DNA from: Diphasiastrum complanatum
Taxonomy: Eukaryota > Streptophyta > Lycopodiopsida > Lycopodiales > Lycopodiaceae
Reading direction: 5' to 3'
DNA: 64,000 nt
NCBI GenBank assembly: GCA_029204225.1
Contig: CM055097.1
Location: 3,566,620 to 3,630,619, forward strand
This document shows positions 10,961-61,300 of the stretch, piece by piece (position 1 is the first letter of the stretch; the number at the start of each line of letters is the position of its first letter). The notes beneath the pieces are model-generated. The model made no database searches. It was not told where the DNA came from and saw only the letters and a program-made list of their open reading frames with translations. Both the position numbers and the translations under genes were made by a program.

Positions 10961-11059
10961 AGGTCGAGAAGACCACGAAGAGCGCCAACAAGATATGTGC
11001 CAGGCAGCTCAGCTTCCACATCAGAAGAGTTTTGCGGATTCAGTGGCGAACTACAAACT

Positions 11060-12600: not shown

Positions 12601-12610
12601 ATCATGCTTT

Positions 12611-12620
12611 GAGAGGGAGC
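12611..12620 (+). promoter_or_regulatory. Polypurine tract of A1
   Basis: GAGAGGGAGC directly before the 3' LTR start TGAAGG. The identical tract precedes the 3' LTR of A4 at 51731-51740. Confidence 0.85.
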
Positions 12621-25800: not shown

Positions 25801-26140
25801 GCATACCTTGTCACCGTTTTTCGAGTTTTCGGCCTTGTCCGACGTTTAACTAGTATAGTTAACTTCAGACAATAGTTAGTTAAGCATGAGATGTAATCAC
25901 TTCTCTTCATGCTCGTTCCAAAATTCGGGACTAGAGCTTTAAGGCTGAAAATCTTGGTGTGCTCAATGCAAAAACTGAAGCGGGAGTAGCAGAACTTTTG
26001 AAATCCTTGTATGCTTATAGTGAAATATGAGGCGAGACGATTTTTCAATGTGACATAAACATTACAAAAGTAAGGTATGCTAGATCTATTCATGTTGATT
26101 TACTATAGTTTGAAGTATTTACAGATTGTAGCTTTTAACA

Positions 26141-27176
26141 ATGGCAACGTTCCATTTTCATGTTGCTCTTCCTATGGAATGCACTCCAATTATTAAGAAA
26201 AGTTAGAAAGTTGTAGAGAATGTTGCTACAATAGTTGGAGAATTGAGAATGAATAATTTTATGAATCTAGATTTGTGGGTGGGTGGATCAATTTATCCTA
26301 ATGATCCAGCTACCAATTTGTGTCCAGATTTTAAGTCCGTAAATCATCTTCTCAGATTTGTATGTGAAGGAAATAGCGGATTACTTGGATATTGTCAAAG
26401 GTTGCGTGATATTGGAATGCATAGCATATCTTGTCTTAATCAGCAATTACAGTTTGCTAAATTGCAAAAACATGCAAATCAACAATTGCTTCATTATGTG
26501 CAACACACTAGTGCTGGAAACAATGCACTCAAGAATGCTATGTCAGAGTTGAATGCTACAGTCACTACTCTTCGGGGATCAAACCAAGAAATGTTAGAAT
26601 CCAGGAAAAGTTGCGATCCGAGAGTTTAAATCTGTTGTTGATATAAAAGTTATCAAAAAGGCAATGATGAAGAAGAAAATAAAGAGAGTACCAATGAAGA
26701 ATATTGATGACTTATCTACACATAGCGGCAATAAAAAAAAAGAATTCTATTTATTTGATTTGAATATGTCATTTAAGTTTGATATGCACTTGATAACATG
26801 GATTATTAATTTATTAAATATAATTTGAGTTTCATATGTTTCTTGCAGATCATGTTTGGTGGCAAAGAACTATTTAACAGATCGTGCATGCATTGGATCA
26901 TCTTTAAGTCATGTTTTACCAAGAAAGTCAGTAAAGGAAATGATGAAAAATGTTCGGTTCGAAAAAATGAAGAATGAAATTGCAAAGACTGTTTTGATTA
27001 AGGTTCAATCATACTTGGATGCAAATGCGATACAAGGTGCATGTGATGTTTCTGGAATTAGCAGAAATGCTTATTCTAGTTTTTTTAGAATAGCTAAAGA
27101 AGCTTTTTCCCAAGTGATGGTGAAGAAAACTTATCTTCTGCATCCATATCGGGTAAGATTAGCAGGAAATTATTGA
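26141..27176 (+). pseudogene. Unrecognised multi-exon-like gene, broken
   Basis: ATG 26141 opens a 163-codon frame (to 26629) interrupted once by TAG at about 26204: MATFHFHVALPMECTPI, then VVENVATIVGELRMNNFMNL, LCPDFKSVNHLLRFVCEG, and a helical stretch LQFAKLQKHANQQLLHYVQH. A shift near 26605 moves coding to another frame (REFKSVVDIKVIKKAMMKKK, IKRVPMKNIDDLSTHSG). After an AT-rich stretch ending in TTTCTTGCAG (26839-26848) a further exon-like frame follows to 27174: KNYLTDRACIGSSLSHVLPR, SYLDANAIQGACDVSGISRN. No family recognised. It is clipped by the A3 LTR remnant. Confidence 0.4.
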
Positions 27177-27193
27177 TGAGAAATCGAGTCAGC

Positions 27194-28244
27194 GCTCTAA
27201 TACCATTGTTAAGAGTCGAGTGGTGCTCCGATACGAATGATGAGAATCGTGAGAAGAAAAAAATTCACAGAAACATTCGCGACCCTCTTTCGAGATTCGG
27301 ATGGCGTTCAGATGCGTTCGCTGCGCACTGCCAGCTAAAACACTCCTACAATCCTACTGATCTACGTTCATAAAATTAATATAGCATTCGCCTTCATTTC
27401 AACCAAGGTGCGGAATTCAACAAGGGAACAAGAAAACTCAGACATACTAAAGTAAAATAAACAGCATAAGCATTCGACATCCAAGATCAGACACACTCTA
27501 TATTGATTTTCTCTGATTTCTTCAGTGCACTACATGCAAATCCACGCAGTGCGTTGGCGTGAGAGAAGCACGGCTCTCTCACAAGTAGTAGTCTCGCTTT
27601 ACTAGCGGACAATTGGATTTTTCTGATCCTAGATAGAATTGTCTTCTCGCATGCAGACGAAGCTTTTGTCTGTGTTCGTCTTAATTGCTTACTAGCATCA
27701 GACTACTTGTTCTTCTTTCTTGCTTGGTTACACACTGTGTATCCTATTGATATATGTCAAGTATTATTCAGTAAGTAAAGTCTCTCTATGCAAATCTAAG
27801 ATTAGAGTGATTAACCATCTACAACTAACCAGAGAATTACAAGAGTGGCAGTTTAGCCACGACCTAGGGAGTATCTGCTGACGTCATACCATCAGGTCAG
27901 ATCTCTGTACTTTTGGTACTTGCGTGATCTCTGGTGGTACTCCCTGGAGCGTGAGGACTTAAAAAAAGTTTCATTTTCACCGTTGGTTTCGTTTACCTCA
28001 TTTGTCTTTCTCTCGTATAGGACCGCAAGGGGAATCTCGTTCGTGTTCATGAACCGTTGGTCTTCGTCTTCGTTGACTTTCGTGTTCACGAACCTCTTCT
28101 TGTTTTGTGTCTTCAGATGTTCGAGTTCGCGAAGATGCTCGTCATCGTCTTCGTTGACTTTCTTGTTCGCGAAACTCGTCGTGTTTCGTGTCGAAGGGCT
28201 ATAAGCTAGCAAGGCTTTGTGTTCAAAAACACTTTGTTTCTTCA
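27194..28244 (-). mobile_element. Copia family A lone LTR with primer site (A3)
   Basis: LTR 27207-28244 (1038 bp) matches the LTRs of A1 and A2 in reverse orientation, starting (minus) TGAAGAAACAAAGTG and ending next to a primer site that reads TGGTATTAGAGC on the minus strand (27194-27205, one mismatch). Everything internal to the primer site is missing, so this is a 5' LTR with a few leader bases, not a clean recombination solo LTR. Confidence 0.85.
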
Positions 28245-28599
28245 ATTATTATAATCACGGAATGTTCAAAGTAGTTGGCCAACCACTTCATATAACTAAA
28301 TTATAAAAATCGAAATATGGTGAGCTCAATTACAGCAATTGCAATAATGTTTTTCTTGATATTGAAAATGTTCTAAAATACATTATTCGATTCTATAAAC
28401 TAGACGAATGGAAAAGGGACAAGTGTGGACTATGTAGGAAAAAATAGTAATTATTCTTCCACATAGAACACGATGCAAGTTTGAATAAATCAATGTCTTT
28501 AATCATGATTTTATCTGATCTATGTACAAATAGAACAATATTTGTTTCGATTGAATATGTGTGCGGAAATTCACAAATTGGTTCGAGATCTGATAGAGA

Positions 28600-31673: not shown

Positions 31674-32713
31674 AACGGTCCGCTTCTTGTTGACCCAGAG
31701 AACTGCTGCTCCTGATGAAATGGTGCATCCTCCTGAGACACTTTTATAGTCGTCCTTGAGAGATGCCCAACTAGCATCGTTGTAGAAAAGTATCCTGAAA
31801 CCTACACCACGACAATAATTTGCTCATCCTGAATACTGCATAAGCAATATCAGGACGTGTGTTGTCTGCAAGGTACATCAGTGATCCTATCAGCTTCTTG
31901 TAAGGTGTGAGCTGCATCTGTTCTCTCTCTTCCTCAATCTTTGGACAGTCATCATTTGTTAGCATCGTCCCTACGAGCATTGGACTGTTCGCTCCTTTGC
32001 AGTTCAGCATCCCAAAGTCCTCTAGGATCTTCTGGGTGTATCTGGACTGGTGAAGGTATAACTTACCTCCCTCATAGTCCCTTTCAATTTGCAAGCCTAG
32101 GTAACACCTGGCTTCTCCCAGATCAACTATCTCAAAATGTTTTGAGACGTTTGCCTTTACTTCAACTATTAACTGCTCACTCCTACAAAGTATCAGAGTG
32201 TCGTCCACATACACAGCCACAATGATGATCTACCCATCTATAATTATGACATATACATTGGAATCAGCCAACAGAGGCTTGAATCCTAATGATTTCAAGT
32301 CTTGATATTTCTTCTTGTACCATTGTCGAGATGATTGTTTCAGACCGTAGATGCTTCTATGCATTCTGCATGCATAGTCAGGAATTGAATTCGAGACATA
32401 TCTTGGGGGTTGACTCATATAGACCTCTTCGTCTAGTTCGCCATGCAAGAAGGCTGTCTTCTCGTCCACAATGTGGATCCTGAGGTCATAAATTGCTGTA
32501 TATGCAAATAACAGACGTAGGGACAAATGTTTGATGATAGGAGAGAAGGTTTCAGAGTAGTCAATACCATATCTCTGAGAGAAACCTTTCGCTACCAGTC
32601 TTGCCTTGTATTTTGTCACATCCCCATCTGGTCCGTATTTGAGCTTGAAGACCCATTTGCATTTAACAGTCATGCGCTTATGTGGTAATGGCTCCAACGT
32701 CCATGCCTGGTTC
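31674..32713 (-). pseudogene. A2 reverse transcriptase and RNase H remnant
   Basis: Minus strand: KCKWVFKLKYGPDGDVTKYK, YSETFSPIIKHLSLRLLFAY, RMHRSIYGLKQSSRQWYKKK, catalytic AVYVDDTLILCRS, FEIVDLGEARCYLGLQIERD, SLMYLADNTRPDIAYAVFRM. After FRMS a deletion removes the connection domain and joins LLSWCRFQDTFLQRC. RNase H survives only as the piece around SSSGAAVLW. One frame break separates the palm halves near 32225. Not functional. Confidence 0.88.
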
Positions 32714-33066
32714 TATGACCTGCCGCCAGTGACAGAGGGAGCAGCAGACGAACACGAAAACAAAGATTTTTGAGTTGTCTCCCATTCAGGCGATGTTTCT
32801 GACGAAGAAAGATTCGAGAGGCAACCTACCGCCATAGTTCCTGTAAACCAAGCGAGCAGACAAGGGCAAATGCATAGCTGTTTCAGGAGGATCTCCCAGA
32901 AGGTCAACAAGACCACTAAGAGCGCCAACAAGATATGTGCCAAGCAGCTCAGCTTTCACATCAGAAGAGTTCCGCGGGTTCAGTGACGAACCACAGACTT
33001 TCGAGGAGGTGATTGAAGGTCCAAAAAAGGACAAATGGATCCAAGCCATGAACGAAGAGATGGAGT
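32714..33066 (+). other. Inverted segment inside A2
   Basis: This 353 bp piece matches A1 10757-11126 (integrase tail/RT linker) in the plus orientation, although A2 lies on the minus strand. The sequence on both sides is minus-oriented A2 in the correct order: VLERH up to 33067 and the GAACCAGG linker from 32713. About 4 and 10 bases present in A1 are missing at the two joints. It is therefore a local inversion with small junction losses. Confidence 0.85.
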
Positions 33067-34440
33067 GTCTCTCCAGAACTTCGTAGCTGACAGGATCGTC
33101 ATTGGCCACTGTCCTGCTCTCATCGAATATGAGATCTCTCACTGTTTTCACAGTATTCGTGTCTAGCATGTAGATTTTATAGTATGACAAATTGTTGTCA
33201 TAACCTACCAGAAATCCCTGCTCGACTTTCTCATCAAGCTTCTTACGAAGCTTATTAGGAATATGTGCATTAGCTGCATAGCCAAAGATTCTGATATGAG
33301 ACAAGTTGGGCTTTCTACCCCACCATAGTTCATGTGGTGTTGTGTGAGGAACACCAGACTTACCTATCCTGTTCTAGATGTATGCGGCTGTAGCTATCCC
33401 TTCAGCCCACAGTGCCCTTGGAGCCTTCGAGTAGGCCATCATGCATCTGGCTACTTCCATTAGGGTCCTGTTCTTTCATTCAGCAACACCATTGTGTTGC
33501 AGTGTGTAGGCTGCAGTTCTTCTGTGAATGATACCATGATCATTGCAGAAGTCAGTGAAGCGATTTGAGATATATTCACCACCTCGATCTGTTCTGATCT
33601 GCTTCACCTTGCTGTCTGTACATCTCTCTGTCCAATTCACATATTCTATGAATTTATCGAGCGCTTTAGATTTATTCTGAATAAAGTACACTCTGGCAAA
33701 TTTGTTATAATCATCAATGAAGGTTTATATAATATCTTGAACCTCCTACTGAGACCACGTTGAATGGTCCACAGCTGTCAGAATGCCCTAGCTCTAAAAT
33801 TTTTGTCGTTCTGTAGGAGTCTTTGACGAATGGAGTGCATGACATCTTTCCTTTCAAACATGCATTCGAGATGCTGACCCATGTTATCGTTCCATGATGA
33901 CTTGCTTGGTAAAGTGCCATTGAGTTCATGTGGCAGAGTCTTCTGTGCCACAGAGTGTCTGGCGAGTCGTCATGAGTCTGATGCACCTTATCTTCAGGTA
34001 GGCATACCTTCAGATGATATAGGTTACCTTTCCTTCTGCCTTGAGCGATGAGAGTACTGGTACTACGGTCAATCACATTGCATGCTTTGTTAGAAAATGT
34101 CACACGCATCCCTGCATCTGTTATTCTTGCTATAGAGAGCAAGTCTTGTTGCAGAGTAGGCACGAACAGAACATCTTTGAGTCGTATGTCTCTACCGTTG
34201 GTGTTGAGCCATAGTGAACCAATACCGTTCACTTGATGTCTAGATCCATCTCCAAAAACTATGAATCTTGAGGGATCTGCACTTCTGAAATCTGGCATTA
34301 TTCGTCTTGATGTCACGAAGTGTGAGGTGGCTCCTGAATCTAGGATCACCTCATGTGTGTCAGACGTTGATGCTGCACACACATCTTTACAGATGTAGGC
34401 GGTCGAACAACTTCTATTCGTTCTTTCTTCGCTCATCTTC
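33067..34440 (-). pseudogene. A2 protease and integrase
   Basis: Minus strand: protease LDSGATSHFVTSRRIM, GDGSRHQVNGIGSLWLNTNG, LLSIARITDAG, pre-integrase TLWHRRLCHMNSMALYQ, integrase LELGHSDSCGPFNVVSVGGS (first Asp kept), a frame break, IRTDRGGEYISNRFTDF (second Asp kept) and LQHNGVAE (Glu kept), followed at once by a stop (KN of EKKN preceded by TGA). The C-terminal part reads RKKLDEKVEQGFLVGYDNNL. The catalytic triad is present, but frames are broken. Confidence 0.9.
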
Positions 34441-35400
34441 TAGCTCTTGGGCTCCTCGACATAGGATGAACTATTGTTGTTCTCCTGTCTGTTCTGTGCT
34501 GATTTGTTCCTTGGATTCTGTGGTAATCCATGGCTGCAAGACCCTTCTTATGGCAATGGATAAACTCAATCTTGGGATTGAGCCAGCAGGTATCTACTGT
34601 ATGTCTGTCTCTTCTGCATCTCACACAAGTCTTCTTGTCTGCATCTTGTCGTTTTGACCTTCCTTTGGTCTTCCAGTTGCCTTTGCTTGTTCCCTCTGCT
34701 TGTTGGTCACGATCCTGCCTCTGATTGGACTCCCTCTTAGGCTTAAATTGTTTCTTTGATTTTTCTTTGTTGCCGTAGAGGGCCTGGTCAAAACCATCTT
34801 TGTGATCCAGATGTTCTCTGGCCTCGACTTCCTCTCAAATCTCGACAATCGCCTTTTCGAGGTTCATGGTGAGATCTTTCGCGAGCAGGATTCGTGTCGT
34901 CTGGAAAAATCTGGGTAAGGCTCTCAACAGGTACGTGAGCTGCTTCTCAGTTGACATTGCATTCTCTGCTCCAGAGTTATGTAGTGATAGAAACAGATCC
35001 TTCATCTTTTTTACAAAAAATGTGAGGTCCTTTCCATCCCACTGCAAATTCGTCAACTGATCTTCCAGCATCATGATCTGAATTATTGATTTCATCTGAA
35101 ATCTGGTGAGTAATGCATCCCACATCTCCTTAGCCTTGGAGATTGTAGCCAGGTCAAGTGTGAGACTATCTTTGATGGAAGATGATAGCAAGGCTACTGC
35201 CTTGTCGTTTTGCTCCCTCCATTCACGTAGCTCCTTGCCTGTTGTTGTAGGTATTTCTTCTGTGCCATCCACCCAGGGGAAGCGTCCTTCACCCTTGAGT
35301 ATCAAAGATGTCTTGACTTTCCAGGCTAGAAAGTTAGATCCTGAAGAATCAAGTATCGTGCAGATCTTGCTCTGCATGCTGCTGATTGAAGCCATTGCTT
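34433..35400 (-). pseudogene. A2 gag
   Basis: ATG at about 35395 starts MASISSMQSKICTILDSSGS, NFLAWKVKTSLILKGEGRFP, and continues with a long open frame to about 34835 (LTLDLATISKAKEMWDALLT, FFVKKMKDLFLSLHNSGAEN). This is the best-preserved gag of family A in the window: A1 has two stops where this copy reads NFLAWKVK. A stop after AIVEI (near 34835) and later shifts break the basic region and zinc knuckles (34433-34848), where CIHCHKKG appears as FIHCHKKG. Confidence 0.9.
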
Positions 35401-35496
35401 CTTGAAGTCTGTTTACTTGTTGGTGGTTGATTGTCTGAATGCTTGGCCTCCTGGATCTGATAGCTTCTTTGGCTATGTCAGAATTTGACGGGGTGC

Positions 35497-35508
35497 GCTC
35501 TGATACCA
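35497..35508 (-). promoter_or_regulatory. tRNA-iMet primer-binding site of A2
   Basis: Minus strand TGGTATCAGAGC, one base inside the 5' LTR end. Confidence 0.9.
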
Positions 35509-35509
35509 C

Positions 35510-36551
35510 TGTTGTATGTGTGATGACTGATGAATTTGTCGGATTCGCGAAACTTTTGCGAAGGCGAATCAAGCACGACTCTCTTCGTCTCGGATGGAGT
35601 TCAGATGCGATCACTGGACACTGCCAGCTGAATCACTCCTATAGTCCTCCAGAGTGTAGTCAGTCACTACTGATCTACGTTCATAAAATTAATACAACAT
35701 TCAACATAGTTTCAACCAAAGTGCGGAATTCAAAATGAACAAGAAGAAACTCAGACACGCGATTAACAGCAGAAACATTTGCATTCGAGATCATACACAA
35801 CACAAATTGATATGTGCGCGAAGGCTACAATATTATCTATTGATATTCTTCTCTGATTCTTTGAGCACTACGTGCATACCCATGCAGTGCATTGGCGTGA
35901 GAGAAACGCGGTTCTCTCACGAGTAATCGTCTCGCTTTACTAGCGGATTGTTGGATCTTCTGATCCTAGACAAAATTGTCTTCACACGCAGGCGAACAAG
36001 TATTCTGTATTTTTTGTCTTCATTGCTTACTAGCATCAGACTGTTTCGTTGTTACACTGTATGTGTATTTTGTTGATCTATATGTCAAGTATCATCCAGT
36101 AAGTATGGTCGCTCTATGTAAATCTAAGATTAGAGTGATTAAGCAACTAGTCAAGGAGTTACAAGAGTGGCAGATTAGCCACAACCTAGGAAGTATCTGC
36201 TGACGTCATGCCATCAGATCATATCTCTGTACTTTTGGGTACTTGCGTGATCTTAGCTAGTACTCTTTGGAGCGTGAGGGCAAAACGGGTTTCATTTTGT
36301 TCGTATGCCTTTCTCTCATACTAGACCGCAAAGGAATCTCGTTCATGGATCTTTCGTGTTCATGAATCGTTCGTCTTCGTCTTCTTTGACTTTCGTGTTT
36401 GCGAACTGTTCGTCTTCGTTTCCTTTGACTTTCGTGTTCGCAAAACTTTTCGTGCTTCGTGTCTCCAGATCTTTTAGTTCGCGAATGTCTTCGTCGTGTT
36501 GAGGGTTGAAAGCTAGCAAGGCTTTGTAATTAGAAATGTTTTGTTTCTTAA
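35510..36551 (-). repeat. 5' LTR of A2
   Basis: 1042 bp, minus strand from TTAAGAAACAAAACA (36551) to ACAACA (35510). Matches the A1 and A3 LTRs. Confidence 0.88.
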
Positions 36552-40497: not shown

Positions 40498-40850
40498 TAG
40501 GTGCTTTTTACCCTTCAGTTCGTATCCCTCTGGCTGCAACATGTAGATTGAGGAAAGTTCCGGATAATGCGTCCAATGGATTTGTTTTACTAATTTTTAT
40601 TTGTGTGAATCTAGAGATTCTTGATTTGCCGTGTGGAGGGATTGCCCTGTCCAATGAAGCTGCCATTGTTATCGGAGACCAAGAGGAACCATTGATGCAA
40701 TCAATATTTGCAATGAAAAAAATGTAGAAGATCAATGGATACCAAGAATATATCAAAAATATCAATGGATCTTGATGCATCCCTCTGCAAAAGGCTCATT
40801 TTGGAAAAGAAAAAGATCAGATAACATATATAGAAGCTCTTAGAAAGGCA
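40498..40850. other. No gene seen
   Basis: A plus frame of about 75 codons continues to 40727 (DNASNGFVLLIFICVNLEIL), but no family is recognised and there is no start context. Left unassigned. Confidence 0.3.
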
Positions 40851-40859
40851 TGATAATGG

Positions 40860-41720
40860 ATTTCAAAGTATCACCTGCCGGTCAATCTATTACGAAAGTT
40901 TTAGTTTAGTATGCTTATCTTCACAATGAGCTCAACATTCATGATTTGAATCCAAATGATAGAAGAAAATGTATTTGTAAGTTTTTAGATTTGATTTCTT
41001 TAGAGTTAGTATTTTCTTTGAATTATATTTTTCTTGTGATGTTTTTGTTGGTTTTGCAGATTTGTATCCATCAAATTTCATTGAATGGCAAACAGTTCAA
41101 TCGATTGCAGGAATAATCGACGTCATACATTCAGATATCGGTATTTTACAATATAAAGGTCTCCAAAATCACTTTTAGAGTCAGGACTTTTCTTTTTAGA
41201 TTAGACCCACATCCTCTACTAGATATTTCGAGTGAGGAATGGATTTCTCCTAATGCAGCAATTTCAGAAAGTTTTCAATCTAGGCTATATATTGATATTC
41301 AGAGTATATTAAAATGTAGCACTAGATCAAAGAATAATAGATTAAGTTGGTATCTACCTTTTACTATTTTTGTTGATTTTTTTTCAAATGCAATGTTTGG
41401 AGAACGAAAACAATGTTTATATGTAAGGACTTGAGTGCTGAAATAATCGCCGAGATGTTGGATGATGGTTGGGATACGAAACAAAATCAGCAAGTTGAGT
41501 GCAGAGTATGTTACTCATCAATGACATTTACCTATCACATCGAAAAACAAATGCTCACTTGGCTGTTGTATTATAGAAAATGAACTAAATGCAAAAATGT
41601 TTGGAAGCCACTTGATCAAGATTTTGGTATAAACCCTCAAGAGCAACTTCAGATAATAGTGAAAAGAAATGACAACATTCTTGCAATAGTTGAGGTCGAG
41701 GAAAATTGATGTCTCAGTCA
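40860..41720 (+). pseudogene. Unrecognised exon-like frames
   Basis: Plus strand exon-like pieces: SPAGQSITKVLV, stop, YAYLHNELNIHDLNPNDRRK; an intron-like gap with GTAAGT-type donor at about 40978 and TTTTGCAG ending at 41060; YPSNFIEWQTVQSIAGIIDV IHSDIGILQYKG; then DISSEEWISPNAAISESFQS; and CKDLSAEIIAEMLDDGWDTK with QVECRVCYSSM. The frames shift and contain stops. No family recognised. It could be an old host gene or a captured gene. Confidence 0.3.
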
Positions 41721-41861
41721 CATTCGATCAGAACTAGACTGTTGCAATTCGATCTACCTCAGTACTATCAATTTCAATGGAATGGTGTAAAGGTAAGTTA
41801 TGCCATATGAAAACATTCCTTTTTTTTTCTATTTCTAAGTGAATCAGTTTCAAAAAATATA

Positions 41862-42745
41862 TTAACTAAAACAATTTCTCTTATGCAGGTAAGAGTAAGG
41901 CAGGAAGAACATATAAAATGCAAAGACATTGGAACATCCATCGAAATTGAAGATACACAGATTATGAACAATGGAATTTTGTATTATGTGATAAAAATTT
42001 TTGTATACATCATTTTTGAAAATATATGAACCACTTTTTCTATGAGGCTCTTTCATTTCTATGATTTCCATTTCCATGGTGCAGAACACAATGTAATTGC
42101 AACTGGCATTATCTCCATTGGGGAGATCTTCGGTCACTTGAACCCAGTGACCACTACAATCAGATATCGAATTGACGCTTGCCCTTGTTGAAGTCTCAGA
42201 TATATCGGTTGTATTTTTTGTCTTCATTGCCATGGTCTGTATTGTCCTTGCCTTGGCATATTTGGATATGTTCAGAATATAATCTAATCAAAGCTTTGTC
42301 GCAACAAATCTAAGTGAACTTATGTCACATGTTTGGATTGGTTGTGGCAAAGGTTCGATCAGATCATCTTTCTGAACTTATCCATAAAAAAACCAAGGTA
42401 AAGGCAAGGCAGACCAAGGCTATGAAAAACAAACATTTAGGAAAACCATAGAAATTGAAGTTGAATGAATAATAACCTGAATTAATAACAGGAAAACAAA
42501 CATGTAAAAACAACTATAGAAAATTGTAAATATATTTCTATAAAAAATTTCTGTACATGTGTCTCATCCACATCAAGGGAGACCAACTTTTTATCAGTAT
42601 CAACTTTCTATGATTTCTACATCCATTTCTTCAGTTTGAAGTAGCTTGGGTGGAGAACACTCTGCCACTGCAACTAGATATGAATTTTCGATCACAAGCT
42701 TTATGGTCTCCTACCTGAAGTGCATTATCTCCTTCGGGCATTTAA
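41862..42745 (-). pseudogene. Unrecognised exon-like modules, duplicated
   Basis: Two minus-strand pieces share a LPNGDNA / MPEGDNA motif: 42233-42020 (GHWVQVTEDLPNGDNASCNY, IVFCTMEMEIIEMKEP) and 42745-42600 (MPEGDNALQVGDHKACDRKF). Each is preceded by a plausible acceptor (GATTGTAG or TTTTTCAG). A third piece at 43430-43320 begins after TAATTGTAG with DHWSLYVFMSLYVNDEG, similar to GHWVQV in placement. I do not recognise the family. Confidence 0.3.
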
Positions 42746-43017
42746 ACTGAAAAAAACAAAAACACAGTTAAATGTTATCAATCAAAGATTAGTTATTAGG
42801 AATTTGATTATGAAAAAAAAACTAAAACACAATTAAATGTTATTAATCGGAGATTATCTCTTCCAAATTAGGAAGTTCATCTTGTAGTGCAAGCCAATTG
42901 AAAAAGAATTTGGCATTGCATACCGTATACCAACCACAGCTGACAGAAATCAACCTGCTGGGAGGACTGCAGTATCAAATATAAACGAAAGTTAGTAACA
43001 AAATCTAAACATTATGT

Positions 43018-43175
43018 AATATCGGATCAACGTGCAGGAGGTTATAATAAAATCTACAACGGAAACAAGCGTGCATCGAATCGATATCCAAAAAATATTG
43101 TTTGAATATCGGATCAGTGCGCACGATATGAAAAGAAACCAAACAATAACTACAAGGGCGCGTCGAACCGATATT
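43018..43175. repeat. Two paired-box modules (left of the H3-like gene)
   Basis: Module 1: box AATATCGGATCAACGTGCA at 43018-43036 and the inverted partner around GCATCGAATCGATATCC at 43069-43089. Module 2: box at 43104-43123 and partner GCGCGTCGAACCGATATT at about 43157-43175. Box and partner are imperfect reverse complements separated by 32-33 bases. Confidence 0.75.
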
Positions 43176-43493
43176 GATAAATTTTTACATTTGCATCAAC
43201 CATTTTCAGCTTCGTATATGCTATTGCATGTGGTATTGGAAAGAGTTCTAGTATTTTCTAGATATGGCTCCTGACAATTTTTTTTGTGTGTGTGTGTAAT
43301 AGAGTTAATCTTTAAACAAACTGGATTACACACACCCTCATCATTGACATATAAGGACATGAACACATATAAGCTCCAATGATCACTACAATTAGAAAAC
43401 AATAAATTTATGAGAATCAATGTGAAATCAAAATTCATACTAAAAATTCAACTTAATAAAATCTGATGGAAATTTACTTACTTTATTATTTAT

Positions 43494-43640
43494 GGGACCA
43501 CGAGAATTGGAGTCCCCAGTCTGACGTATTGGAGCATATCATCGTGCAGACTTTTAAAATCAGGGAAATCAAAAGCAGCCATGAATCGCAGGGGAAACAA
43601 TGCTACATCTATAAATAGTGGGGTCTTGAAAAACTCCATT
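43494..43640 (-). CDS. Small unrecognised ORF (48 codons)
   Basis: ATG 43640 to TAA 43494-43496: MEFFKTPLFIDVALFPLRFM, AAFDFPDFKSLHDDMLQYVR, LGTPILVVP. The composition is protein-like. A GTAAGTAAAT donor-like sequence follows 11 bases after the stop on the minus strand, so the stop may be read in an exon whose true frame I cannot fix. It lies 160 bp downstream of the H3-like gene on the same strand. No function is proposed. Confidence 0.3.
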
Positions 43641-43722
43641 CAGTACTAAATTGCACCCCCTCCTACATTGTCCCCTAGCATTTTATCCCTACTTTCTAAT
43701 TCACCTGTATCTAATTTTGAAA

Positions 43723-43748
43723 GAGGAAGACCAGCATTGGTCTTCCTC
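43723..43748. other. Perfect 11 bp stem with 4-base loop
   Basis: GAGGAAGACCA (43723-43733), loop GCAT, TGGTCTTCCTC (43738-43748). It lies 55-80 bases downstream of the stop of the minus-strand H3-like ORF. Confidence 0.7.
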
Positions 43749-43802
43749 ATCTTAAAACTGTATAGAGGACTTAAAGCTTTAAGATATGTGTTTAACAATT
43801 GG

Positions 43803-44363
43803 TCATACTATACATATTGAGGAGTATTTACAAAGGCAAGTGCAGGGGTTTTGTACTCGAAAAACAAGCTGGGGTGGTTGAGATTGCTTTCGTTTTCTTT
43901 TTTCTGCATCTTGTTTTGGAGGAGAGGAAGGAGCTGGTTCAAAGTACTCTGCAAATTTGTCATATGTGTCTCGTAGCCTGAACACAGTGTTGAAATCCTT
44001 GGGCATAATGGTCACCCTCTTGGCATGGACAGTTGCAACAACAGTATCTGAAAAAAATTTCACTTGGAAATCCTCATATGCAGTGTGCAGCACCTCAAAT
44101 GCTGTTACAGTCCATCTCACATCTGCAGATAGACTTCTTGTAACCTGTCTGATGGATCTCTGTATGTGAGCTTTTGGAATCAGAAGATTATTAGTCTTCT
44201 GTAACTTTTGAATATCCTTCAGCCAAGAAGGGTCTCTTTGTCTTCCCTTTGGCCTAGGAGGAGGTGGTGGTGGACAACGCGGTGGTGGTGCATTTTCCTG
44301 ACCCCCTCCCGTGATTGGGATTCCACCAGGGTGGATTCGTGCTGTTTGCTTAGTCCGCACCAT
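43803..44363 (-). CDS. Divergent histone H3-like protein (H3/CENH3-like)
   Basis: An intronless 186-codon ORF. Residues 1-8 after Met are VRTKQTAR, as in canonical H3 except Val for Ala, so the K4 context is kept. Position 9 is Ile (canonical Lys), 10 His. Residues ~26-45 are Pro/Arg-rich in place of the K14-K36 region. Residues 47-136 align without a gap to the H3 fold (about 35 of 89 identical by hand): DIQKLQK, NNLLIPKAHIQRSIRQVT, DVRWT, YEDFQVKFFSDT and the invariant HAKRVTIMPKD. NLLIP, RWT and FSD recall plant CENH3, but loop 1 has canonical H3 length. DNA-contact Arg residues equivalent to R63, R69 and R83 and the tetramer residues H113 and D123 remain. A Lys/Pro-rich ~50-residue C-terminal extension follows. 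Candidate roles are a centromeric or lineage-specific H3 variant. A histone captured by a mobile or viral element is an alternative. Confidence 0.8.
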   Translation of the reverse strand: MVRTKQTARIHPGGIPITGGGQENAPPPRCPPPPPPRPKGRQRDPSWLKDIQKLQKTNNLLIPKAHIQRSIRQVTRSLSADVRWTVTAFEVLHTAYEDFQVKFFSDTVVATVHAKRVTIMPKDFNTVFRLRDTYDKFAEYFEPAPSSPPKQDAEKRKRKQSQPPQLVFRVQNPCTCLCKYSSICIV

Positions 44364-44371
44364 TACTATCC

Positions 44372-44441
44372 AATATCGGATCAGCGCACGAAGAAGGAGA
44401 ACTCAGGATCAGAAGTCAAGTTGAGCGCATCGAACCGATAC
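44372..44441. repeat. Paired-box module directly upstream of the H3-like start
   Basis: Box CAATATCGGATCAGCGCACG (44371-44390) and inverted partner GAGCGCATCGAACCGATACC (44423-44442), spacer 34 bases. It starts 8 bases upstream of the H3-like ATG, so it lies in the 5' UTR or proximal promoter. Half boxes follow at about 44454 and 44524. Confidence 0.75.
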
Positions 44442-44596
44442 CTGAACTTAGACCAAACCGATACCTGAGAGCGGAGGGGCACGCACGAGTAAAAGCAGAA
44501 TGTAAATAGGTTGCTTCGGACGAGTTGAATCGATACCGCATGGAAGTAGACAACGATAAGAACTTTAAGCAAAAAATTTTAAGCATCGTCCATCTG

Positions 44597-44604
44597 TATA
44601 TATA
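44597..44604 (-). promoter_or_regulatory. Possible TATA box of the H3-like gene
   Basis: TATATATA (palindromic) about 234 bases upstream of the minus-strand ATG 44363. Position is plausible with a long leader, but the word is common in AT-rich DNA. Confidence 0.35.
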
Positions 44605-44929
44605 GTGCAAATATGAAATGATTGCATATGTGGTGGTTTGGAATTTCGAGGCTCGGATTACGCTGATGATTACTTCGAGATATTCAGAGGCTTGTCAATC
44701 AAGTCCAATTAAATATCCATCCTCCATCAAAATGATTATTTGATATGGCTAATGACGACCACAATTTATTTCTACAAAAGTATGGTCACATCTACAATTA
44801 ATTCTACAAAAGTATGGTCACATCTATAATTTATTTCTAAAATTGACAAGGTTATGCTATAAATATCTAACATTTTTTGATATCCAATCATTATAATTTC
44901 AAAAAATTCCAACGACCATTATTTCATCC

Positions 44930-45391
44930 AATAGTGAATTGATGCGCATATACTGCATGTGTAAACCAAAGGGGCTATTCTCACACGTTGAACTGATATT
45001 GCACAATATATTAATGATCAGAGCTTGACTCGATAGATTCTTCTTAGCTTTGGACAATATGAAAAGTCTACCAAATCAAGCTTTGATCATGTATAATGCC
45101 GTCCATTAATTTCGACAATTTTCAGAAATATTTTTTTTCGACAATAGCGATTCGATGCGCGTAGTCCAAGTGGAAAATAACTTTCTTCTCCGAGGCGCGC
45201 TGATCCAATATCTGAGATGCACTGAAAATATATTGGAACACATTATGCCATCAAAGCTTGCTTCGGTAGATTTTTGAGGAATCTCCTGAAGCAAGCTTTG
45301 ATGATTCATAATGCATTCCAATAGCAAATCAACGCGCGTAGTCCAAGTTGAAAAATCTTTTTTTTTTGGACGGGCGCGCTGATTCGATATC
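44930..45391. repeat. Three paired-box modules alternating with hairpins
   Basis: Modules at 44930-45000, 45143-45212 and 45320-45391, each with two inverted GATGCGC / GCGCGCTGAT-type boxes 33-35 bases apart. Between them are hairpins: TGATCAGAGCTTGA (45015-45028) with TCAAGCTTTGATCA (45076-45089, one mismatch), and CATCAAAGCTTGCTTC (45249-45264) with its perfect complement at 45288-45303. Unit spacing is about 180-210 bp, so this is a short tandem array. Confidence 0.75.
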
Positions 45392-45639
45392 CGATTCGCC
45401 ATACTAGAGTATTTAATCAACGCGCGCCTATTTGATCTGTTCTTGTGAAGCACTTGTCCACTCGCATGGTCGGCTCTTTCAAAATACTCTGCCTTATGAA
45501 AATGTTCTGAATGAACAATTATCTCAAAAGAAAAAATTTCATCTTTACGGTGCTTAAATAGGACGAGAGACTGTAATAATTGCCCTTGTACACGTTTTTC
45601 AATGATGTCCATTTAATATTTGTTTATTATTTGTTTAAT

Positions 45640-45787
45640 GATGATTCGGTGAGGCTAGGATAGACTATTTAATGTATTCCGACACAGGTACAAATTTTAG
45701 GATCAGGGCTAACGATGATTCGTAGAATCTAGTGATAGACTATTTAATGTATTTCGGCGTAGGTACAAATTTGTCTCACTATAAATA
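45640..45787 (+). promoter_or_regulatory. Duplicated promoter segment with TATA box
   Basis: A ~60 bp segment containing GACTATTTAATGTATT occurs at 45640-45698 and again at 45712-45772 (period about 72). It is followed by TATAAATA at 45780-45787, 88 bases before the ATG of the small ORF at 45875. Confidence 0.5.
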
Positions 45788-45874
45788 TGGGCACCACTTT
45801 TCATATTTCGATTCCGTGATCTTTTATTCTGAACTCCCTCGTCATTTTGTTTTCTTTCTTTCTTGCGATATCAA

Positions 45875-46144
45875 ATGACTTCAGATTATCAGAAAACTCT
45901 CCCTCGTTCTATAATCCTCTCTGATTCTCTTCCATTTGCATCTCCTGTTAATCAATTAACTCTACTCGATGTTCCCTTGTACTTTATAAATAATGAGAGT
46001 TATATTTCATTTAATGATATAGAAGATGTTTTGAATTTGAGAGAGGATGAAATCCCCTTGATTTTTGCACAAAATTTATCAGAATATGCTGGAGATCAGC
46101 CAGAAGCCCATTGTAGATGTTCTTCAAATAATTTGGCTGTCTAA
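45875..46144 (+). CDS. Small unrecognised ORF (89 codons)
   Basis: Starts MTSDYQKTLPRSIILSDSLP and contains QLTLLDVPLYFINNESYISF, NDIEDVLNLREDEIPLIFAQ, NLSEYAGDQ, ending in a Cys/Ser-rich tail (EAHCRCSSNNLAV). The middle looks like a compact alpha/beta domain. A TATA box and a duplicated upstream segment precede it at a normal distance, which supports a real start at 45875 rather than the upstream in-frame TTG. It is divergent to the H3-like gene, with the paired-box array between them. The product is unknown; it may be only the first exon of a longer gene. Confidence 0.45.
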   Translation: MTSDYQKTLPRSIILSDSLPFASPVNQLTLLDVPLYFINNESYISFNDIEDVLNLREDEIPLIFAQNLSEYAGDQPEAHCRCSSNNLAV

Positions 46145-46590
46145 GTTTGGGATTCCTATAGGTATCAGATGAGCAGACATAGATCCAAAATTGGTTTCAC
46201 CTGACCCTAGATCGATGATCAATAAACATGCAGGAAGAATCATGAAATAGAAATTAGTCATTCACCAAGGAGGCAATTGTGGGCTTAATTTCCAACACAA
46301 ATACTTAAGCTCCCATATTTCTTTGCAAAATAAGTTGCATGATGAAGAAGGATGTGCTACAAATAATAGTTTTGATTAGTTACATTAGTAGAAAAAAAAA
46401 AAATAAGCCTGAATGAGATAAGTATTAGATAATGATATAGATTAGCACCATTGAATGAGTAACTTTGTCTTTTCTCCAACAATCATGTACAAATTTTACA
46501 AATGTGGTGCAATGAGTTTGCAAAGTTCTCAAATCTTCCGATGATAGGTTTTCTTTCCTGATAACACCTATGAGTTTGTCTAAGTTGGTC
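46145..46590. other. No gene seen
   Basis: AT-rich spacer between the small ORF and the A4 LTR. Confidence 0.4.
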
Positions 46591-48680: not shown

Positions 48681-49951
48681 AGTAGTACTTGATTCGGGAG
48701 CCACCTCACATTTTGTTTCCTCGAAACAAATTTTGTCTAAGTACAAAAAGATGAACCATTCAAGATTCACTATACTTGGAGGCGGTTCTAAACACGTGGT
48801 TGATGGAACTGGTGTATTATGGCTAGACACGAATCAGGGAGACAAGAAACTGGAGGAAGTTCTCTATGTCCCTACTCTTGATAAAGATCTTCTATCTGTA
48901 GCTAAGATAGTTGATACAAGCATATCAGTAACCTTCACGAAGAACTCTTATAAACTGTTCGAGGAAAATTCTGATAACCTGGTTGCTAAAGGCAATAGAG
49001 AAGGATATTTATATCACCTGAACATTCGAACAAGAATCGAACAAGTCAATCAAACTCATGAATCAACAGATGTATTGTGGCACAAAAGGCTATGTCACAT
49101 GAACATGGAAGCCTTTTACCAAGCCAAAAAAAAGTCAGAGAATTCAAGGAGTCGAAATCAAAAGTAAAGATATTTGAACTACCTGCAAATCTTGTCTTAA
49201 AGGCAAGATGTCTAGAACAGCTTTCAGTAAGGATGTTTATAAAGCAGCTAAGGTACTTGAAATTGTGCATTCAGATATTTGTGGACCATTCAGAGTAATA
49301 TCGTTGGGTGATGCAAAGTACTTCATTATGCTTATTGATGACTTCAGCAAGTTCACTATAGTATACTTTATTCGTACCAAATTTGAAGCTTTCGAGAAAT
49401 TCGTTGAGTATACGAATTGGGCTGAGAAACAGCCATGCAATAAGCTGAAGCAAATTCGCACAGATCGTGGAGGTGAGTACATTTTCAATGAATTCAAAGC
49501 TTACTGTATTGATGCTGCAAGGTGTATGATGGCTCATGCAAAAGCACCAAAACAGTTGTGGGCAGAAGTAGTGGCTACATCAAATTATCTTCAGAATTGT
49601 ATTCAGAAATCTCGAATACCGGATAAAACTCCTCATGAGATATGGTGGAAGACAAAGCCAAATCTTGCACATGTTCGAACATTTGGATGCACAATGTATA
49701 TGCACATACCAGATAAGCTGAGAAAGAAACTCGATGAAAAGACAAAACAAGGTTTTCTGGTAGGAATCGAATCACATTTGTCATATTATCGTGTTTATAT
49801 ACCCAAAACTGGCAAGATAAAAGTTGTTCGAGATGTTAAGTTGTTCGACAGTGATCTAGTCGGCTATGAAATTCTCAAAAATCATTATGAGCTACCAACG
49901 ACAACAATAGATAAACAAGCAAAAGATGAAAGAGAATTACCAGTTTCATAG
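48681..49951 (+). pseudogene. A4 protease and integrase, catalytic Glu deleted
   Basis: Protease LDSGATSHFVSSKQ at about 48690 and EVLYVPTLDKDLLSVAKI. Pre-integrase VLWHKRLCHMNMEAFYQ. After a frameshift near 49140, the integrase frame 49208-49951 reads VLEIVHSDICGPFRVISLGD (first Asp), IRTDRGGEYIFNEFKAYC (second Asp), then jumps to DAARCMMAHAKAPKQLW. Compared with A1, about 30 residues containing the NGVVEQKNR segment with the catalytic Glu are missing, in frame. The C-terminal part (RKKLDEKTKQGFLVGIES) is intact. The enzyme could not integrate. Confidence 0.9.
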
Positions 49952-49999
49952 AGAGGTGAAAATCGAGCAGACTCGAATCGCCAGTTCGAATTCCAACAG

Positions 50000-51720
50000 A
50001 AAAGCTCGAATCAAAATTGAACTTGAAACCTGCAGAATTGAACTCGAAACCACCTGTGAGAAGATATGATAGACAAAGAAAACCACCAGAAAGGTATGGT
50101 CATGATGTTTTTAATATAGCCATCGAGTTTTGTGGATTCTCTGACGAACCTCAAACATTCAAGGAAGCTGTAGATGGGCCAGAAAAAGATCACTGAATTC
50201 AGACAATGGAGGACGAAATGTCATCCATGTATAAGAACAATGCATGGACACTTGCACCTATACCTGATGGCAGAAAACCAGTCAAGTGCAAGTGGATCTA
50301 CAAGATCAAAACAGGTCCTGATGAAAAAAACATCAGATACAAGGCAAGGTTAGTTGCTAAAGGATTTTCACAGAAGTATGGGATCGACTGCACTGATACT
50401 TTCTCACTGGTAGTCAAACATACATCAATTCGCTTGTTATTCGCGTATGCAGTGGCTCATGATCTGAAAATCTATATTGTGGATGAGAAAATTGCTTTCC
50501 TGCACGCAGAACTAGAAGAAGACTTATTCATGGACCAACCACTTGGTTTTGTAAGCCAAGAAAATCCAGAATGTGAATGTCACATGAATAAAAGCATTTA
50601 TCGTCTGAAACAAGCAGCAAGACAATGGTATAGAAAGAAAGACGAAGCACTAAGTTTCTTAGGCTTCAAACCTCTATTTGCTGAATCAAATGTCTATATC
50701 AAGCATGTCCAAAATGAAATAATCATTCTAGTTGTCTATGTTGATGACACGCTTATCTTCTCAAAAAGAGATAAGTTAATTTCAAATGTCTTCTCAAGAA
50801 GAGATAAGTTAATTTCAAATGTCAAAAGAGACATTTCTAAAATATTTGAGATCGCTAACCTAGGAGAAGCTAAAATCTATCTAGGCTTGCAGATCGTGAG
50901 AGACTTTGAAGGTGGTAAGTTGTATCTTCACCAACAAAAGTACACTCAAAAGACCATTGAAGACTTCAACATGCTTGAATGCAAAGGTGTCCATACTCCC
51001 ATGATACCTGGAACAATACTGAGCAAGGCAAATTGTTCGCAGATTGAATGGCCAAAACACCCTATCGTAGGCTGATTGAATCATTGTTATATCTAGCAGA
51101 CAACACTAGACCTGATATAGCATTTGCAGTATATAGGCTGAGCCAATATAATCAGAACCCAGGATCATTGCATTCGAAGTTGGCAAAAAGAGTACTACAA
51201 TATCTCCAAGAAATGAAAGACTATGGATTGTATTATTCGAAGGAAGCTGGATTTCATATCGAATCTTACAATGACGCAAGCTGGGCATCCATAAAGGATG
51301 ATAGCAAAAATATTTCAGAAGGTTGTACTCTAGCATCTGGCACAACCATACTCTGGATAAGCAAGAAGCAAATATCAGTAGCTCAAATCTTTTTGTGAAG
51401 CGAAATATGTAGCAGCAGCCAAGATGGCAAATGAGCTGATGCGGATTAAACAGAAATTGGAAGGATTTGATGAATCTAGTTCTGAACTTTATGTCTTGTT
51501 AATGGATAACACTTCAGCAATCTATCTTACGAAAGATCCTATATTTCACTGAAAAATGAAGCACATAGTTATCAAATATCATGTGATTCAAAACTTAGTC
51601 GAGAAGAAGATACTGAAGACAATCTTCATATGCACAGAGGAAATGACAGCTGATATCTTTACAAAGCCACTCAATAAGGCTTTGTTTGAGAAACAGCGAA
51701 GAAGATTGGGGTTAAACCAA
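50000..51720 (+). pseudogene. A4 reverse transcriptase and RNase H
   Basis: Long open frame 50206-51075: RYKARLVAKGFSQKYGIDCT, SIYRLKQAARQWYRKKDEAL, catalytic VVYVDDTLIFSK. An 11-residue unit (FSKRDKLISNV) is directly repeated after it (50758-50823). A frameshift near 51050 follows, then LLYLADNTRPDIAFAVYRLS and RNase H YNDASWASIKDDSKNISEGC, another shift near 51390, FCEAKYVAAAKMANEL, a TGA near 51550, and the end MTADIFTKPLNKALFEKQRR. RT could be nearly intact at protein level apart from the insertion, but upstream breaks make it unlikely to be made. Confidence 0.9.
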
Positions 51721-58379: not shown

Positions 58380-61300
58380 ATGGATGATGGCAATGCGGAC
58401 ATTCGCAGTATGGATCAAAGTGCAAAACAAGACAAAAAGAGACCTGCTTTACCATCTCTTCCATCCCCACCTCCCTCTAATCGTCCTTGCCATGAATCAC
58501 CTCTTCATGCATCTCTTCCTTCGCCTTCACCGTATCGCCCACCACATATTCGTTCTGCTGTTTCTTCTTCTCCTTTGTCATCCTCACATAATCCTATACC
58601 TCATTCCTCTCGTGTACCTTGTCCGGGTTGCGGACATTTATATATGTTGGGTGCGGGCCTTTTTAGGCATCAAAATGCTTATAGTGCCTTCCAACAACGA
58701 GCTTCCCTTTTAGAATCAATCCAAACCCCTCATCCTGCTCCACTTTCTCCTCCCGACTCAAGTTGGGCTTGGGCTCGCAATTTTGATATTTTGGGCTCCT
58801 TTTATCTTGGTTTTCCTCGACCATGCCATTATGCCCACATTCCTAAGGCCCTTCGCCTTGAAGTTCAAAGAGCTCTTCGACTACCTTTGACCCGTTTAGC
58901 TACCTACCCTTCTGATATTGCGGCTTGGCATATTTTTTTTGCTTTGTCCCCTTTGGTGTTTGCCTCCTCCAAGAGGTGGTGAAGTAGGTCATCGGGAAAC
59001 ACGTAACAAAATTCGGCGTTTCATGTCAGGTGATTGAGAAAATTTGCAAGAGGAACTTCTTGTTTGTTGCAATGCACTTGCAGCAAAACGGGAGTTTAAT
59101 TCAGGCTCCGACTTGGGTTCCATTCCTATTCATAGTTGTCTACATAGTTGTGTTTTGCTTGGACAAGCTGGTGAATTTTCTTTCTCGGGCTGCACATGCT
59201 CTTGCTCCATCAATTTCGGCAACACCTTCTTCTACAACTATTCAGGCATTGGAACAACTTCATCCCCATGCAAGTGATACTCTTCCTTTATTTGTGGAAG
59301 ACTTTCAGCCTGAATCCGATTTTCAACTTGCGGAAGCTCATTTTATGAAAGCTTTTCTGCGTAGTCCTCGCCTCTCAACCGGTGGACCTTTAGGAATGGT
59401 TTTTGAACATCTATGTGATTGTTTTTCACCAGAAGATTATGCTTGTGGCTTTGATCTTCTCTTTAAGGTGTGCTCTTTCATTGCATCTGGGCAAATCCCA
59501 CCTTCAGTTGCTCATTTTTTAGGTGCTGCTCGTCTTTTAGCATTGGATAAAGCTTCTGGTGGTGTGCGTCCAATTGTAGTGGGAGAATGTTTATACAAGT
59601 TGGTGGCAAGGGCACTCTGTTTCTAGTTTCGAGAAACATTTCATGCTCATCTTTTTCCATTTCAATTTGGGTGTGCTACTCCTGGCGGTTGTGAGACAGT
59701 CGTTCATGCTTTACGCGCTACTTTGGATATTCATCCTGACTGGGTAGTATTGCAAATTGATGTTGCTAATGCTTTTAACTCAGTTTCTCGGGCGACTATC
59801 TTTCAAGAACTTCGTGATGCTCAAGATACACTTGTCATGCTCATTCCTTTTGTGCGGAGCTTCTATTCAAAAAGTTCTTCTTTATATTCTAGTCATGCTT
59901 CTCGTGCTGGTGATGTTACCGTCATTTCTTCTGTTGAAGGAACTCGACAAGGGGATCCTTTGGGTGGTCCTCTCTTTGCTTTGGCACATTATCGCGCATT
60001 ACGTGCTACAGCTTCAGCTTTTCAGTCCTGTCTATTCTCCTCTATTGCGGATGATACTCATATTGTGGGGCCTGCAAGTGAAGTTGTCCCTGTTTTTTTG
60101 TATTTGTCAACTCAACTTTCTTCTATTGGGCTTACAGTGAACAAGGATAAGTGCGTTGCTTGGTGCCCAAAAGGCCTTCCAACATATATCTCATTACCTA
60201 AAGGTTTCATTACTCCTCAGCTTGGGATTAAGGCTTTGGGTGTTCCCATTGGTTCTTCTGGATATGTCAATTCATTTATGTGAGAAGTTTTGGATGGATT
60301 TGCTCGACATTCTGTTTTGTTGCCAAAGCTTGGAAATTCTCAGGTTGCATTTGGAATTCTCACTCAGTGCTTTGCTCAACGTCCTAGCTATCTTCTACGT
60401 TGCGTATCTCCTTCACCTGATATAGTATCCTTACTTCGGGATTTTGATGATGCTTTCTTGGGCATATTTGGTCGTCTTTTGGGGCCATGAACCTTTGACA
60501 CTTGTGAAGGTCAGTTTTCTAAGCGGCAAATTCCTCTTCCTGCTTCCTCTGGTGGTGTTGGCCTTGTATCTACTGCTTGCATTGCACCAACTGCTTTTCT
60601 CGGAAGTTGGGCTCTTGTTGCCTCTGCACTAGTCTCCAGGTTCCAGCATGGTAACCAGCCTCTTCTTCTTGATACGGTCGCTCATGTGGAGACTGGCAAT
60701 TTTTCTTTTCAACAAGCTCTACGCACTGCTCAAGATTTACTTCCACCACTTGTACAACCTTTTGTGCCTCCCTTTGAATCTTTGGTGACAAATTAACAAC
60801 GAGTTTTTTAGAAGACTATTATGGAGCATATTCACAGGGGCTTGGTTGGTTGCACGTCCAGTTCTTCCACTATTGAGACTCAATAATGACTTGTTTATAA
60901 CTGCCCTTCTAACCAGATTGGGGCTTCCACATCCAATGTTAATTGGTATCTCTAAGTGTTCATGTGGGCATGTATTGGATTCCTTGGGTACTCATCTTAT
61001 GCGTTCTCCATCAGGTGGAGAACGTAATGTTTCACATGATTCCATTCGTGATGCCCTGGCTGCTATTGCTCATGATAGTGGCTCTCATGTTGTTCGAGAA
61101 CAGACACACGTTTTACCAGGGCCTTCATCGCAATCTATCCGACGACGAGTTGACCTTGTTCTCTCGCGTGATGAAATTCGTACTCTGGGAGATGTTGTAA
61201 TTGTTGATCCCTCTCGTCAAGACCTTCTTCGTCGTTCTTCCACCACGCAAGGGGCCGCTGCATCTCAAGCAGCTCAAGTAAAGGAACGAGATTATAATGA

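Follow-up and report, generated by a model that had tools for sequence, protein, structure and literature searches.

A histone H3-fold reading frame in Diphasiastrum complanatum, probably the truncated first exon of a gene on a high-copy transposon-like element

We analyzed a 64,000-nucleotide stretch of Diphasiastrum complanatum DNA (the window; contig CM055097.1, positions 3,566,620 to 3,630,619) that carries an ORF resembling histone H3. This ORF is probably the truncated first exon of a gene on a high-copy, DNA-transposon-like plant element. In the less damaged copies, the gene appears to encode a single protein made of an H3 fold, a Pro/Ser/Lys-rich linker, and a protease-like domain. Whatever its function, such a protein would place the histone fold among the genes that DNA elements of plants carry along. 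It also calls for caution: in genomes of this kind, a divergent H3 or CENH3-like gene may be part of a transposon.

The ORF and its H3 fold

The ORF occupies positions 43803 to 44363 on the minus strand and is open throughout its 186 codons. An earlier note on this DNA had described a 186-codon frame here; it is intact, but it has to be read from the minus strand, since the plus strand from 43803 is closed by several stops. The protein starts with MVRTKQTARIHPGG..., and its first residues, MVRTKQTAR, contain the tail start VRTKQTAR that the note had reported. Against canonical H3, the protein aligns without a gap over 84 residues of the fold, as claimed, and 35 of these are identical (42%; the earlier hand count was 39%). 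The HAKRVTIMPKD block is complete, and NLLIP, RWT, and FSD are all found; loop 1 has H3 length in the alignment, and the longer CENH3-type loop is absent, again in agreement with the note. The ORF thus shares the gap-free fold, the RTKQTAR start, HAKRVTIMPKD, and the length of loop 1 with canonical plant H3 (H3.1/H3.3). Unlike canonical H3, it is only 42% identical in the fold, has a proline-rich tail, has lost K9 and S10, and belongs to a mobile, multicopy gene in which the histone is fused to a C-terminal domain. According to an excerpt of PMC4357034, plant H3.1 and H3.3 are recognized by signature residues 31, 41, 87, and 90 and by near-identity between plants. With 35 of 84 fold residues identical, the window ORF falls outside that description.

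The Pfam Histone profile matches residues 37 to 131 with an E value of 2.9e-20, which means that this is not a chance ORF, and H3 chains in the PDB match residues 3 to 131 (E 4e-18). Judged by this profile and by the solved H3 chains, the window ORF is a histone H3-fold protein. AlphaFold was run on the single sequence and on a 14-row alignment, and both models were too poor; the helices modeled at residues 46-58, 64-80, 85-105, 107-116, and 121-141 come with a pLDDT of 56. A Foldseek search with the poor 14-row model (pLDDT 56) returned no PDB match at E 0.001. No Rfam family reached its gathering score. About 60 nt past the ORF stop lies a 66-bp imperfect palindrome (43704-43768) with a perfect 10-bp stem (GAGGAAGACC/GGTCTTCCTC); it falls within the exon 1 remnant and has no Rfam match. 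The features of the window are collected in Table 1.

Table 1. Parts of the H3 element in the window. Window coordinate = 44363 - offset from the ATG.
Feature	Position	Strand	Evidence
N-terminal tail, codons 1-37, proline-rich, begins MVRTKQTARIHPGG	44253..44363	-	
H3 histone fold, codons 38-140, most constrained stretch	43944..44252	-	Pfam Histone 2.9e-20
Last ~15 codons and stop, deletion-derived frameshift product, not shared by the family	43803..43850	-	comparison with other copies
Rest of exon 1 (putative start of protease-like domain), decayed with stops, other frame	43487..43846	-	tblastn 84%, E 2e-61
Predicted exon 2 remnant with DHWSLYV (His) motif, two frames	43192..43387	-	tblastn; splice signals in other copies
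Predicted exon 3 remnant with SCGWY (Cys) motif	42858..42944	-	tblastn
Predicted exon 4 remnant, FKCPK...EIIES	42603..42746	-	tblastn
~80-bp palindromic-ended unit, presumed intron 2	43014..43091	+	
~80-bp palindromic-ended unit, presumed intron 2	43101..43178	+	
~80-bp palindromic-ended unit, end 5 bp before ATG	44368..44446	+	
~80-bp palindromic-ended unit, inverted, upstream of gene	45141..45216	-	
~80-bp palindromic-ended unit, inverted, upstream of gene	45316..45395	-	
H3-element remnant	40671..46590	-	pieces 40671-43848, 43852-45780, 45875-46091, 46298-46590 (blastn between the window and 20 copies of the source genome)
Second element ORF remnant, MASDYQKTLP...FNDIEDVLNLREDEI	45875..46090	+	tblastn 86%, E 2e-35; no Pfam family
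Third element ORF remnant, ADIIAELLDDGWDTKQN..., apparently two exons	41437..42002	+	tblastn E 5e-72, bait pieced together from several copies; no Pfam family above cut-off
Further element ORF remnant, NGKRFNRLQEIIDVI...	41066..41299	+	tblastn 49%, E 2e-18, bait a hand-typed composite with letter errors
Separate left-end fragment of same element type	25810..28408	+	sequence comparison

Copies in the genome and extent of the element

We ran a six-frame search with the ORF protein against the source genome (1,744,706,496 bases in 5176 contigs) and scored 150 of 7562 loose first-look candidates; the larger number does not measure copies. Each of the 150 scored matches is a relative, with 74 to 100% identity (85% for the best one besides the window itself), so by its matches the window ORF is a member of a high-copy family and not a single-copy gene. 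The matches mostly span residues 1 to about 173 and are spread over 23 large contigs (C1-C23) and many small ones; some rows of equal score evidently reflect segmental duplications or duplicate copies on contigs left unplaced. In-frame stops interrupt 133 of the 150, and 17, the window copy included, have none. Many decayed copies, which the earlier note had named as a finding that would count against a functional gene, are thus present for the window locus. We fetched 20 of the 149 non-window matches, 9 kb each plus some flanks, from a list ranked by protein likeness to the window ORF. L026, near-identical to another copy, was excluded from the counts, which gives 20 copies when the window one is included. 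Their stops mostly reflect CAG to TAG and CGA to TGA changes. On contig C2, a stretch of about 16 kb with a copy of the element is duplicated at about 98% identity (33.57M and 28.03M; L024 and L026), and one breakpoint of this duplication resembles gypsy integrase sequence by eye.

By blastn, DNA similarity outlasts the gene in all 20 copies and continues for kilobases on both sides in most; upstream, it is short in two (about 30 bp in L031 and 520 bp in L033). Relative to the ATG, related DNA reaches from about -6 kb to +4.8 kb. In L029, E37, L020, and the duplicate pair A24/B26, the right end of the homology is ...GGGCCCATTTTGAGTTCTAATATCCCCTAATG, and the common end ...AATATCCCCTAATG closes it at four independent sites whose flanks differ. 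An inverted form of this end is found at the left-type end in L021, with 29 of 34 bases matching. When 21 stretches were scanned, the right end was present in 5 (4 independent sites) and the inverted left-type end in 1; the matches cover 29 to 34 of 34 bases, except for 25 in L020, where a one-base gap lowers the count. A further match in S18 (25/34) belongs to a nested insertion. The ends are TIR-like (CATTAGGGG...CCCCTAATG), and we take them to be the terminal inverted repeats bounding an element some 11 kb long. The best reading of the carrier is a large DNA-transposon-like element. A histone carried by a mobile element was among the suggestions of the earlier note, and copy number, homology beyond the gene, and a common end sequence all argue for it. 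Among the fetched copies and flanks, none had both ends and a TSD; in the C3/C22 pair, the right flank is common (99%, 870 bp), and no TIR was found there.

In L018, a nested insertion that ends in CATTA-like sequence failed to yield consistent ends. The LTR-retrotransposon reading was abandoned after no direct repeat longer than about 115 bp was found around copy L024, and a solo-LTR reading of the left-end piece was dropped. L018 carries an insertion of about 350 bp at about -970 to -624 from the H3 ATG, with ATTAGAGGAGTT inverted ends; it sits in the fast-diverging upstream part and is possibly another small element.

CACTA (En/Spm) elements have CACTA/G termini and a TNP2-type transposase. 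The H3 element is like them in its termini (CATTA...TAATG against CACTA...TAGTG) and in its size of about 11 kb, and unlike them in that its termini read CATTA and that the pieces tested gave no TNP2 match. Nor did these pieces match any other transposase family in Pfam. By eye, a conserved ORF that spans roughly -4.6 to -3.3 kb and contains GDLK...C..C resembles a DDE-type sequence; Pfam gave no transposase match for it. The separate left-end fragment in the window holds a coiled-coil-like ORF (26141-26590) and transposase-like ORF bits (27066-27173 and 28244-28408). Inspected by eye, some ORFs neighboring the copies resemble insertions of copia or gypsy type.

Units of about 80 bp with palindromic ends accompany the gene. 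At E 0.01 there are 106 in the 20 copies, many of them weak matches, with 3 to 7 per copy, both beside and inside the gene. One unit lies within -90 to -5 of the ATG in 19 of the 20 copies and is partial in L031, and a downstream pair sits in presumed intron 2 in 15 of 20. The remaining units, most of them in inverted orientation, fall between -1.8 and -0.1 kb, except for two at +2.5 kb. The window has five full-strength units, only around the H3 gene. When L027 was compared with other copies, noncoding DNA from -1.5 kb to 0 diverged by 14 to 22%, DNA further upstream by 4 to 12%, and DNA downstream of exon 1 by 4 to 16%, with copy sets that differ between these parts.

Gene model, protease-like domain, and constraint

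Splice-like signals recur across copies: exon 1 ends in AA/GTAAG, and an intron of about 100 bp follows. In other copies, exon 2 holds NDHWSLYV and is followed by the intron with the palindromic units, exon 3 holds SSQQVDSVSCGWYTVC, and exon 4 ends in EIIDS. Taken together, the splice signals and frames of these copies suggest a four-exon gene. L033 has 417 open codons, starting 39 bases before the ATG, and there one frame joins the H3 head, the linker, and the protease-like start. In the window copy, a deletion at about 43850 (offset about 511) has removed 350 bp relative to L018 and roughly 300 to 390 bp relative to others. The end of the window ORF is an artefact, because the rest of exon 1 resumes at 43846 in another frame; decayed exon remains run from 43846 to 42603. 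The earlier description of the ORF as intronless therefore suits the first exon, but not the gene, for which other copies suggest three further predicted exons. Similarly, the C-terminal extension of some 50 residues is family sequence up to about residue 171, and what remains is a frameshift product.

Across exons 2 and 3, DHW, NS, and QQVDSVSCGW occur in this order, and we take them to be the His, Asp/Asn, and Gln...Cys motifs of a Ulp1-type protease; what is presumably the usual Asp position reads Asn here. Ulp1/C48 cysteine proteases are carried by plant transposons. The element domain is like these proteases in having HW (His) and Q..CG (Cys) in the right order, and unlike them in the Asn, in its place behind a histone, and in staying below the family cut-off. 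In Pfam, one copy matched C48 with an E value of 0.19 and 12.0 bits against a cut-off of 20.7 (profile positions 85-193 of 217); none of six alignment rows, one of which is this same copy, matched Ulp1/C48. Searches of the PDB with one copy gave chance-level matches, including SENP8 (E 0.85), and with a profile, SKI2 (0.81) and OTU1 (1.4). From these motifs, we read the C-terminal domain as Ulp1-like, with weak statistical support.

The H3 head keeps some H3-type residues and has lost others. Lysine 4 is retained in 20 of 20 copies and lysine 9 in 0 of 20; position 9 is Gly in 9, Ile in 6, Val in 4, and Leu in 1, and position 10 is His in all 20. Thr3, Gln5, and Thr6 are each retained in 19 copies and Arg8 in 18. 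Beyond about residue 14, the tail can barely be aligned to H3. In the fold, Arg69, Arg83, His113, Arg116, and Asp123, which we take to be DNA-contact and dimer residues of H3, are present in 19 or 20 of the 20 copies, and the dimer-interface block HAKRVTIMPKD is nearly invariant.

The earlier note had named neutral dN/dS as a sign against function, and in the 20 copies tested this is not what we see. Over pairs that are not independent, the median pairwise dN/dS is 0.26 in the fold (below 1 in 186 of 189 usable pairs) and 0.61 both in the tail and behind the fold; in the 9 stop-free copies alone, the fold stands at 0.25. Control readings of the same alignment gave 0.74 and 0.83 in frames +1 and +2 and 0.63, 0.78, and 0.42 in antisense, and in the antisense reading at 0.42, 183 of 189 pairs are below 1. 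Protein similarity to the window ORF was the basis for choosing the copies, and a choice of this kind lowers dN and favors gap-free copies. Comparison of L027 with others gave substitution rates of 0.104, 0.052, and 0.137 at the three codon positions of the fold core (chi 60), with a gap rate of 0.000; in noncoding windows directly upstream, chi went no higher than 17 and the gap rate no higher than 0.18. A further signal at +1342 to +1582 (0.072, 0.104, and 0.160; chi 48) lies outside the search query and hence is not merely an effect of copy choice. The phase signal at +862 to +1222 (chi 14-17) does not rise above the strongest noncoding upstream window (17). At the level of these alignments, the data show constraint on the fold across the copies tested; the tail, with a dN/dS of 0.61, is under weak constraint only.

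Possible role and origin of the H3-protease protein

Plants silence transposons largely via H3 lysine 9 methylation and DNA methylation. We tentatively suggest, stopping short of calling it probable, that the H3-protease protein may help the element as an accessory chromatin factor. The H3 head of this protein, with lysine 4 and residues of the H3 dimer interfaces kept and lysine 9 gone, would enter or imitate nucleosomes at the palindromic repeats of the element. These repeats would thereby be kept from H3K9-methylation silencing, and the protease-like part may assist in this. The mode of action would be like that of VANC of VANDAL elements, with a protein outside the VANC family. According to excerpts of PMC10398659, the VANC protein of VANDAL elements in Arabidopsis binds tandem repeats that diverge fast and lie in noncoding parts of the element encoding it, and it causes silent marks to be lost. 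The two systems are alike in being plant DNA elements with an accessory protein gene and fast-diverging, noncoding repeated motifs, and the upstream divergence of the H3 element resembles that reported there for VANC targets. They differ in that these excerpts of PMC10398659 do not describe VANC as a histone and that the paper never mentions Ulp1 or a protease, and in that anti-silencing is shown for VANC, whereas we infer it for the element H3. A literature search of limited coverage found no case of a transposon-encoded histone or chromatin mimic. An H3 that lacks lysine 9, is constrained in its fold across the copies tested, and is joined to a protease-like domain would give a selfish element a direct means of editing the host's chromatin alphabet. 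The system is also a tractable one, with a single protein, a defined set of candidate repeats, and numerous natural variants.

A bolder version, which we regard as doubtful, is that the H3-protease of the element would replace host H3 on the element itself, with the fast-changing palindromic repeats as landing sites; the active mark on K4 would then be possible and the silencing mark on K9 impossible. If this were true, the element would set its own chromatin state and the host could not re-silence it.

Next most likely after an accessory chromatin factor, and a serious rival even if on the unlikely side, is a role in the transposition complex. In that case, the H3 fold would be a structural part of the machinery. 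Paired with H4 of the host or with some other partner of histone fold, it would aid the binding of transposase to the repeats, with no role in silencing. The palindromic units at fixed places around the gene and the near invariance of the dimer-interface block fit such a role, but the units sit in the interior, nearly all of them no more than 1.8 kb from the ATG, and away from the element ends.

That the element is an endogenous virus or derives from one, with an H3 acquired by the virus (a multiplied giant-virus insertion, for example), seems to us improbable. A histone together with a protease-like domain is reminiscent of large DNA viruses, and several ORFs of the element belong to no known family. 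In three scans of viral contigs, neither the ORF nor canonical H3 nor the alignment found a relative, so the giant-virus derivation entertained in the earlier note gains nothing from them; this is weak evidence, because canonical H3 was not found in these contigs either. No viral family appeared among the Pfam matches of the pieces read, and the TIR-like ends and the copy number also speak against a virus.

We give still less credence to a host H3 variant or CENH3 gene that became a pseudogene family by retroposition or segmental duplication and has no function in an element. The stops in most scored matches, largely CAG to TAG and CGA to TGA in the 20 copies, are what such a family would show, as are a first exon that is open without introns and the 16-kb segmental duplication of one copy. 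Against it, homology runs far past the gene to a common end sequence, the copies retain intron-like gaps with splice signals, and the fold has a low dN/dS, also in the 9 stop-free copies. We set a retrocopy origin aside because of the intron-like gaps.

The descent of the fold was followed in a tree of 19 rows. Nine H3 or CENH3-like contaminant loci from contigs of prokaryote genomes supplied rows for the alignment and the tree. The eight element copies group in a single clade (100/100), whose branch measures 1.11 changes per column. The AU test rejected neither a grouping with plant CENH3 (p 0.44) nor one with H3 (p 0.24), and a weak join with human CENP-A (54/74) was flagged as long branches meeting. 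An early or degenerate CENH3, as the earlier note had proposed, is compatible with the AU result, but loop 1 and the copy number are unlike CENH3. The element H3 is like plant CENH3 and animal CENP-A in RWT after loop 1, IP after helix N, and FSD, and like CENP-A in WLKxIxKLQK; it is unlike both in its loop 1 without extra residues, where the element copies show no alignment gaps, its H3-type tail start, its high copy number, and its C-terminal fusion. That it is a working CENH3 of the plant, or a recent paralogue, is very improbable: RWT, NLLIP, and FSD in common with plant CENH3, WLKDIQKLQK resembling human CENP-A, and the AU p of 0.44 favor it, but more than 100 decayed copies, a loop 1 of H3 length, an H3-type QTAR tail, fusion to another domain, and an AU test equally compatible with H3 rows (p 0.24) do not. 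A literature search of limited coverage found no case of an intronless CENH3. L007 (446-1617) and L009 (3-1076) hold divergent H3/CENH3-like genes, apparently with introns, on contigs labeled as Candidatus Pacebacteria MAGs; these contigs are evidently eukaryote contamination.

Elsewhere in the window, positions 62367-63134 (plus strand) hold a first-exon-like stretch that we take to resemble the U5 snRNP GTPase Snu114/EFTUD2, followed to the window end by what look by eye like copia-like reverse-transcriptase remains. Also by eye, ORFs at 59030-61592 (plus strand; GGVRPIVVGECLYKL...) resemble a reverse transcriptase of non-LTR type, whose C-terminal part is possibly nuclease-like. Several decayed Ty1/copia-like elements can be made out by eye from ORFs at 9172-13120, 31771-35614, and 48733-51075, and some of the Ty1/copia-like pieces of the window also match flanks of H3-element copies.
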